DNA of 64,000 bases. It comes from Methanothermococcus okinawensis IH1 (GTDB taxonomy: Archaea; AGJL01; Methanococci; Methanococcales; Methanococcaceae). The position numbers were made by a program, and so were the translations under genes. Of the stretch, positions 17,518 to 31,889 are shown in pieces. The notes below the pieces were generated by a model. The model saw only the letters and a program-made list of their open reading frames with translations, had not been told where the DNA came from and searched no databases. The stretch lies in contig NC_015636.1 of the NCBI RefSeq assembly GCF_000179575.2, positions 1,465,495 to 1,529,494 on the forward strand. The letters are read 5' to 3'. Each line of letters begins with the position of its first letter. The first letter of the stretch is position 1.

Positions 17518-17598
17518 AAAACCACCAAGGCTTTTAAAAAGTAATTATTTAAATCAATTATTTATTGAAATATAATCTATTATTATGCTATTATTATG

Positions 17599-17792
17599 CT
17601 TCTTCTCTTGCATCGATTCTAGCTTTAATTAACTTTAATCTGAAGAAATTCCCCCTGCAACTTTTAAAAAAAGTTGCATCAAAAAATCCAAAACTCACTT
17701 CGTTCGTTTTGGAACCTATTATCATGCTTCATCATGCCTCTTCTTCTCTTGCATCGATTCTAGCTTTGATTAATTTTAATCTGAAGAAATTC
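17599..17792 (-). repeat. 53-bp direct repeat of the atpD 3' end flanking an inserted element
   Basis: 17740-17792 (the true end of atpD) and 17599-17651 are direct repeats with 51 of 53 bases identical. The downstream copy would encode the same C-terminus ([18 protein letters not shown] plus stop), but it is separated from the gene by the double-hairpin element and is not translated as part of it. The two differences are silent, and the stop region also shows a weaker second repeat (GCATRATAATAG). Read as a duplication of the gene tail linked to insertion of the element; the same layout recurs at tRNA-Val. Confidence 0.9.
17657..17713 (-). mobile_element. Double-hairpin element, copy A (downstream of atpD)
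   Basis: In atpD orientation the 57-bp unit starts with hairpin 1 (17687-17713, stem TCCAAAAC/GTTTTGGA around GAACGAAGTGA). A T-run and GATG follow, and then hairpin 2 (17657-17677, stem GCAACTTTT/AAAAGTTGC). The same two hairpins, with identical lengths of 27 and 21 bases and the same order, occur at 31710-31765. No coding capacity. A small non-autonomous mobile unit is inferred; a duplicated transcription terminator is the alternative, because both copies sit just after a gene end. Confidence 0.75.
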
Positions 17793-18373
17793 TCTCTTTC
17801 CATTTCATCCAATCTCATGGCAATATACTTTCTTGTTTCTTCCATTCTTGGTATTACAACATATTCAAGGGCATTTACTCTTCTTTTTGTTGTAATTATT
17901 TCCTCTGCAAGTAACTTTATGGAAGTTTCTATTTCTGCGAGCTCTACAATGAGTTCCAAAGCCTCTTCAAAATTTTTTGCAGCTTCATCAAGTTTTGAAG
18001 ATATACCATAAGGACCGTAGCCCCTGTTTGCCATGCTTCTTTTAACATTTTCAATTTCAAGAACTGGAACTGTAACTCCCATAATATTTCTTGTATCGGC
18101 ATCTAATTTAATATTTTCATTCTTAGATGCAAAGGAAGCTTCTTTAACTGATAAAGTTCCCATTACTGCCTGAGCCATTATTAAGTTTTTATATGCCTTT
18201 TCAAGGGCATCATTTACTTTATCCCTAATACCAGAAGCTTGGTCTAATATTTCAAAAAACTCCATTATAAGAGCATCTCTTTTCTGTTTTAATAGCTTAT
18301 GCCCTTTCTGAGCAAGTTTAATTTTGGTTTTAAGCTTTAACAGTTCCATCCTTGTAGGATTAACATCTGCCAT
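17732..18373 (-). CDS. atpD: A-type ATP synthase subunit D
   Basis: Subunit D is the central rotor shaft in the A1 catalytic head of the archaeal ATP synthase. The 213-residue protein is two long helices with the family start [20 protein letters not shown], the middle [14 protein letters not shown] and C-terminal [20 protein letters not shown] followed by [12 protein letters not shown]. The stop at 17732 is directly followed by the double-hairpin element and then a second copy of the last 17 codons. Last gene of the operon, 148 bases after atpB. Confidence 0.95.
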
Positions 18374-31597: not shown

Positions 31598-31671
31598 GGG
31601 CTCGTAGTCTAGTTGGCTATGATGCCGCCCTGACACGGCGGTGGTCGGGAGTTCGAATCTCCCCGAGCCCA
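31598..31671 (+). tRNA. tRNA-Val (anticodon GAC)
   Basis: The 74-base G+C-rich island folds into a full cloverleaf. The acceptor stem is GGGCTCG/CGAGCCC with discriminator A. The D-arm starts GTCTAGTTGGC. The anticodon stem CCGCC/GGCGG encloses the loop CTGACAC, giving anticodon GAC (Val), and the T-arm GGGAG-TTCGAAT-CTCCC completes it. CCA is not encoded. No intron. Immediately downstream lies the hairpin element with a duplicate of the tRNA 3' end. Confidence 0.96.
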
Positions 31672-31791
31672 CTTTTATTTAATATTTTTTTATAGAGTTT
31701 ATTTTAGATTCCAAAACGAACGAAGTGAGTTTTGGACTTTTGATGCAACTTTTTCCAAAAGTTGCGTTTGAATCTCCCCGAGCCCACTTTT
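31651..31791 (+). repeat. 26-bp direct repeat of the tRNA-Val 3' end flanking an inserted element
   Basis: 31651-31676 (T-arm to just past the tRNA) and 31766-31791 are identical except for one C to T change, which breaks the TTCGA of the T-loop in the downstream copy. The second copy is not a tRNA because it lacks the D and anticodon arms. Between them lies the double-hairpin element, which ends exactly where the copy begins. The arrangement matches that at atpD. Confidence 0.9.
31710..31765 (+). mobile_element. Double-hairpin element, copy B (downstream of tRNA-Val)
   Basis: Hairpin 1 spans 31710-31736 (TCCAAAAC/GTTTTGGA, loop GAACGAAGTGA). CTTTTGAT follows, and then hairpin 2 at 31745-31765 (GCAACTTTT/AAAAGTTGC). 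Compared with copy A at 17657-17713 the stems are identical; differences are limited to the linker and the loop of hairpin 2. Same orientation relative to the upstream gene as copy A. No coding capacity; non-autonomous mobile unit inferred. Confidence 0.75.
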
Positions 31792-31821
31792 TAATGGTTC
31801 TATTTTAGGTTTAATTTAGGC

Positions 31822-31847
31822 TCCAACCGAAGCGAAGCGAGGTTGGA
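31822..31847 (+). repeat. Variant hairpin related to hairpin 1
   Basis: The stem TCCAACC/GGTTGGA encloses GAAGCGAAGCGA. It is shifted in sequence but has the same outline as hairpin 1 of the double-hairpin element (TCCAAAAC, loop GAACGAAGTGA). It is preceded by a TTTAATTTAGGC segment resembling the TTTATTTTAGAT before hairpin 1. It follows the duplicated tRNA tail, so the tail-plus-hairpin unit appears to have been duplicated and diverged. Hairpin 2 is absent here. Confidence 0.65.
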
Positions 31848-31889
31848 TTTTTATTTTACATAAATATTTATAAATTTATATGGATAAAC

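Follow-up and report, generated by a model that had tools for sequence, protein, structure and literature searches.

A small double-hairpin element found between gene ends and their copies in Methanococcales, with template switching as a possible mode of insertion

In Methanothermococcus okinawensis IH1, a gene for tRNA-Val is followed by a double hairpin and then by a second copy of the tRNA 3' end, which raises the question of how a hairpin comes to stand between a gene end and its duplicate. The locus lies in a 64,000-nucleotide stretch of contig NC_015636.1 (the window), from a genome of 1,662,525 + 14,930 bp. Upstream is a gene for an ECF/cobalt-type ABC transporter ATPase and downstream, on the opposite strand, one for diphthine--ammonia ligase. 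The intact host gene, tRNA-Val(GAC), lies at 31598-31672 (ARAGORN; Rfam tRNA), on the plus strand like the features described next. Its 3' part from the T-psi-C loop, together with a T-rich spacer, is the source of the duplication (A, 31651-31704; 54-bp alignment to the copy). Next comes element E (31705-31765; covariance model R1, 88.9 bits), comprised of a first hairpin, hp1 (31710-31736; stem CCAAAAC/GTTTTGG, apex GAACGAAGTGA), a spacer, and a second hairpin, hp2 (31742-31765; GATGCAACTTTTTCCAAAAGTTGC), whose end is the exact border to the copy. The copy of the tRNA 3' end and spacer (A', 31766-31816) starts GTTTGAA, not GTTCGAA. The initial annotation had reported a double hairpin directly before a 26-base tail copy with one change, and this is confirmed: GTTTGAATCTCCCCGAGCCCACTTTT from 31766 differs from GTTCGAATCTCCCCGAGCCCACTTTT from 31651 at 1 of 26 bases. 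The double hairpin folds with z = -5.2 as DNA and z = -5.1 as RNA, and none of 200 shuffles folds as well.

Beyond the copy lies a second, older element that the initial annotation overlooked (E', 31817-31879; E = 4.2e-7, locus L012), with an intact hp1 (CCAACCGAAGCGAAGCGAGGTTGG) and a decayed hp2, such that the full layout is A-E-A'-E'. Here and at locus L002, the newer element has on its outer side an older, decayed one with a different hp1 type; sequential insertion of elements is thus visible at both loci.

The window also holds a sister copy on the minus strand, behind the ATP synthase subunit D gene (17732-18373). The gene end and its flank (A, 17719-17797) are followed by E (17657-17718; 87.8 bits) and by a gene-end copy (A', 17578-17656) that starts AGGGGGAATTTC, the gene itself reading AGAGAGAATTTC. 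The same target position (17578-17797 in the window) is duplicated in four Methanocaldococcus genomes (L023-L026), and the duplication is missing from relatives nearer to the window genome; this distribution points to an old insertion with losses, to transfer, or to one target used repeatedly. Identity between A and A' of subunit D is 85-97% within species versus 82-90% between Methanocaldococcus species. Full concerted evolution of the two repeats was rejected, as it is only partial at this gene.

In a covariance model search, 21 of the 36 genomes of Methanococcales contained E, and both families were represented; the richest genome has 51 copies, and G028 has 24 model matches; these copy numbers are drawn from searches and retrieved stretches. 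For 113 copies we compared 150 bp on either side for direct repeats, with a score cut-off of at least 20. The cut-off was reached by 63 of the 113, and in 53 no more than 3 nt separate hp2 from the start of the copy A'. As a control, 1348 mismatched flank pairs gave 43 that reach a score of 20, of which 11 also start within 2 nt; because 53 of 113 copies stand against 11 of 1348 mismatched pairs, chance is excluded for the A-E-A' layout, which the initial annotation had called unlikely to be accidental. The recurring order is gene end A, hp1, hp2, copy A', where A measures 24-102 bp (median 50). About half of the E copies have no recognizable A'.

The layout also holds its orientation, as the initial annotation had proposed from two unrelated genes, and it does so far beyond two cases. 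Among the 53 repeats, 49 have the gene beside hp1 and three have it beside hp2, with one unassigned; the 49 include orthologues of single insertions (subunit D in four Methanocaldococcus genomes), and independent events are somewhat fewer. The element adjoins the 3' end of a tRNA in 14 cases, the 3' end of a coding gene in sense in 23, the 5' end of a coding gene in antisense in nine (for example L010, at ksgA, and also L096 and L037), and a CRISPR array in three. This tally is based on ORF calls rather than annotated genes and includes at least one doubtful call, L075, which sits at a tRNA and is counted as coding. Head-to-tail arrays are seen as well (132 bp x3, 112 bp x2, and 147 bp x2).

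Several loci add detail of their own. In the CRISPR-array copies L095, L100, and L103, all in G016, a degenerate CRISPR repeat follows hp2, and its start is altered in the same way, AATTAGAGCC. At the start of ksgA (L010, L043), 112-bp tandem units make an upstream ORF with a KsgA-like beginning (MKQNKKLGQCF...) that runs up to the element border. Species-specific changes in G000 and G003 are shared by the repeats, which suggests gene conversion. Longer hairpin modules are nested inside the hp2 loop at L015, L020, L033, and L216, and similar module strings occur elsewhere in these genomes. Finally, a second hairpin family (GGGTATAGCAATAGGGCGAAGCCCTATGC, L325-L354) is multicopy in Methanocaldococcus and likewise precedes a tRNA tail copy at the tRNA-Val site of G022, G026, G030, and G035.

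Both hairpins are conserved as structures. Across 69 copies, 98% of pair cells are standard and 16 of 18 pairs have changed on both sides. The covariation score of 0.600 compares with 0.156 for shuffles and with no more than 0.118 when the structure is slid. Fitting of the alignment to the E model tilts the score toward the E structure, but the gap is wide. Covariation this strong points to structural constraint on both stems. An Rfam search returned only tRNA above its gathering score, with HPnc0260 at 40 bits against a threshold of 59; E belongs to no known Rfam family.

Comparison of relatives establishes what the ancestral sites looked like. In 12 genomes the tRNA-Val site carries one tail, no hairpin, and no relic of a second tRNA, and in other genomes hairpins and a tail copy occupy the same place, some with different hp2 sequences. 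Empty orthologues were found in G007, G008, and G010 for both the subunit D gene and the tRNA-Met site, and also for L013 and L009. Conversely, the window genome is empty at four sites that are filled in its close relative G003 (L018, L037, L079, L082), and of the tRNA pair of L005 and L034, a different member is occupied in each of the two species. E and A' have therefore been gained together at formerly empty sites, and A' is not a relic gene. The initial annotation held that its reading would be undone if the second tail belonged to a degraded second tRNA gene, and tandem tRNA pairs do exist, such as tRNA-Met in G010; with 12 relatives lacking a second tail and the layout present at protein genes as well, the probability of such a relic is close to nil.

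The same sites bear on two explanations tied to transcription. The initial annotation suggested a mechanism that senses gene 3' ends through the transcript or the terminator, and this did not hold up: nine sites are antisense gene starts, three are CRISPR arrays, and empty sites carry no hairpin. Alternatively, the hairpins could be terminator-like structures owned by the gene, with gene end and terminator tandemly duplicated by polymerase slippage. Tandem arrays, the position of hairpins behind genes, and T-rich flanks would all suit such slippage, which we nevertheless consider very improbable, since the missing hairpin at empty sites contradicts it and E occurs at nine antisense gene starts and, in near-identical form, at unrelated genes.

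What kind of mobile sequence E represents was approached through known classes. An integrative element of tRNA genes (attL/attR) was ruled out, as E is 61 bp and has a different A at dozens of unrelated genes; elements of the pNOB8/SSV type also leave a partial tRNA copy beside inserted DNA (cf. PMC3293823), but are kilobases long with an integrase, whereas E is a 61-bp hairpin at many unrelated genes. A MITE of a DDE transposon was rejected on two grounds: there are no terminal inverted repeats, each end being its own palindrome with hp1 and hp2 not mutually pairing, and the duplications (24-102 bp, median 50) are not of short fixed length. An element related to IS200/IS605 or REP/RAYT was set aside because the Y1 HUH transposase PF01797 is absent from G000, G016, G012, G023, and G028 and a target duplication is present. 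Carriage of E by viruses was likewise rejected, with one match among 2.9 million viral contigs.

A retroelement of the LINE/SINE or group II type was also rejected, as PF00078 (RVT_1) occurs in only one of 36 genomes, and not in the window genome. In its broader form, this explanation holds that E moves via an RNA copy by LINE/SINE-like target-primed reverse transcription, with the 3' hairpin and a short tail pairing with the target. Mismatches of the G.U/G.T type, tail-target pairing, a stable RNA fold, and the presence of the hairpin in tRNA introns are in keeping with an RNA copy; the lack of RVT_1 in 35 of 36 genomes, including that of the window, and the use of antisense gene starts as sites leave it improbable.

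The joint between hp2 and A' is the most informative part of the layout. In the first 14 nt of A', changes of A>G or C>T outnumber the reverse by 56 to 18, versus 70 to 71 in the remainder of A'. With tRNA sites removed and related copies collapsed, the bias is 33 versus 11 (p = 0.002, normalized for base content). The consensus start of A' is RTKGRGAR, and the matching gene positions read RTNGARAA; the joint alignments are partly hand-made, and individual positions are uncertain. A' begins as the target blended with a recurrent tail of about RTTTGRGAA. In tRNAs, the GARAA-like target motif is the T-psi-C loop. Across 14 tRNA sites with differing hp2, most copies read GTTTGAA versus GTTCAAA or GTTCGAA in the gene; because this double change recurs at many loci, it reflects a shared tail rather than decay at the tRNA copies. 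Changes of A>G and C>T are the trace that G.T-tolerant pairing of the E tail with the target strand would be expected to leave. Some of the junction mismatches may instead have arisen later, through decay at the margin of a repeat subject to gene conversion.

We propose, with about an even chance of being right, that archaea have in E a small mobile hairpin, non-autonomous and inserted by template switching or tail-primed copying. The 5' joint of E lies in T-rich DNA at the gene border, and the foot of hp2 forms its 3' joint. A DNA strand whose end lies in this T-rich border would gain E by template switching, or an E strand would be joined to it. Imperfect pairing, with G.T wobbles, would then bring the short tail on the 3' side of hp2 onto a GARAA-like stretch that lies 25-100 nt further back along the same template, where synthesis would restart and recopy the gene end as A'. 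Repeats A and A' could thereafter let arrays grow and be partly homogenized by gene conversion. Because the switch into E would be intergenic and the restart would fall behind the switch point, the gene on the hp1 side would stay intact and the copy would lie beyond hp2. Together, a template switch and a returning tail would account for the variable length, sharp hp2 border, blended bases, polarity, and arrays. We infer the tail-priming step from its end products, no intermediate or donor-recipient pair having been caught. The E copies that lack a recognizable A', the three with the gene on the hp2 side, and the possible later decay at the junction also weigh against the proposal.

The main rival to template switching is a transposase with a wide stagger. 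A transposase or integrase encoded elsewhere would recognize the hairpins and make wide staggered cuts, and gap repair would yield long, variable duplications as in IS1634/IS1549; off-target integration of a Cas1-like kind is a variant. The exact hp2 border, conserved paired ends, and a target motif would all fit such an enzyme, and IS1634/IS1549 duplications span 8-514 bp with no mechanism proposed (PMC2266710). A simple target duplication, on the other hand, would leave a perfect A', whereas the copies open with 8-10 bases that form a biased blend. Furthermore, the autonomous relative with a recombinase that the initial annotation suggested looking for was not found: none of the elements carries a transposase gene inside it, the window genome has neither Y1 transposases nor reverse transcriptases, and Y1 (PF01797) is missing from E-rich genomes (G000, G016, G012, G023, and G028). 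Cas1 occurs in 19 of the 21 E-bearing genomes and in 4 of the other 15, uncorrected for phylogeny; its presence tracks phylogeny with exceptions, as G008, G015, G018, and G020 lack E, and G017 and G034 have E and no Cas1 match. The length of the E duplication also varies, unlike that of CRISPR repeats. Searches for Y1, RVT_1, and Cas1 yielded no enzyme candidate for E movement, and E could be moved by an enzyme yet to be discovered. Overall, we rate the transposase or integrase explanation as possible but rather unlikely.

Among described repeats, E falls with mobile double-hairpin repeats, being a dispersed double hairpin with presence and absence between relatives. Double-hairpin and repetitive hairpin elements of mitochondria (DHE of Allomyces, RHE of sponges; PMC2800124) similarly feature two short tandem hairpins, are intergenic, and were recognized as mobile by comparison of relatives. 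Allomyces DHE is reported without flanking duplications (PMC2800124), whereas E usually has long ones. IS1634 and IS1549, related to IS4, do produce long direct repeats of variable length (PMC2266710), but are full insertion sequences with a transposase, whereas E, at 61 bp, has no terminal inverted repeats, and the start of its A' is altered. YPAL/RU-2 of Yersinia, as described in PMC2229807, is a small hairpin repeat with 3-26 bp duplications and targets near dyad symmetry; at 168 bp it is an enterobacterial element with shorter duplications than E, and the passage describing it makes no mention of gene-side polarity. The same paper cites palindromic repeats MJRE1-3 of Methanocaldococcus jannaschii (Suyama, Lathe and Bork 2005, as cited in PMC2229807). 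MJRE and E are both multicopy palindromic repeats of the same order and may be related. The abstract on MJRE by Suyama, Lathe and Bork reportedly does not mention gene-end copies. The combination of a double hairpin and long gene-end duplications, along with the tail-target match and polarity, was not found in the literature searched, outside of which the MJRE paper stands.

Related hairpins reach well beyond Methanococcales. In a search of 84,980 prokaryotic genomes, the hp2 27-mer pattern TTTGATGNAACTTTTTNTAAAAGTTNC matched 65 stretches. Archaea account for about 62 of these, in Methanococcales, Methanovirga, Methanobrevibacter, Micrarchaeota, Aenigmarchaeota, Pacearchaeota, Woesearchaeota, Diapherotrites, Nanoarchaeota, Nanohalarchaeota, Altiarchaeota, and Thaumarchaeota. 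Within Methanococcales, a 24-base form of hp2 gave 58 matches versus none for reversed and scrambled patterns, and an AT-rich palindrome artefact was rejected for that order. Bin contamination or convergence of an AT-rich palindrome may contribute to the wider distribution. Repeats of the A-E-A' type were also found outside Methanococcales; examples are L280, with three units following a tRNA in a Nanoarchaeota bin, and L266, antisense to a tRNA at its 5' end. Predicted tRNA introns contain about ten of the wider matches; most of these introns are from DPANN archaea, and one is in a Bacteroidetes-labelled bin. The intron loci, from Micrarchaeota and others, mostly DPANN, are L261, L268, L270, L273, L285, L288, L292, L297, L316, and L321. 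The hp2 hairpin is a possible source of tRNA introns.

As a tentative extension that we think doubtful, these hairpins may form a pan-archaeal mobile class, common to methanogens and DPANN archaea and spreading by tail-primed template switching, in which the tail pairs with a short motif, the element lands at gene borders, duplicates the gene end, and supplies DPANN tRNA introns, with no transposase, reverse transcriptase, or terminal inverted repeats.

Genomes commonly contain small palindromic repeats, and how the ones lacking a transposase move is an open question. The end products of E record the event in a precise hairpin border, a biased base blend at one joint, and a copied gene end, and empty and filled sites in close relatives make the mechanism testable in cultured methanogens. 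The presence of hp2 in introns of DPANN tRNAs suggests one origin for new introns of this kind, an old question in archaeal biology. If true, the pan-archaeal hairpin class would be a mobile element that operates without transposase, reverse transcriptase, or terminal inverted repeats.
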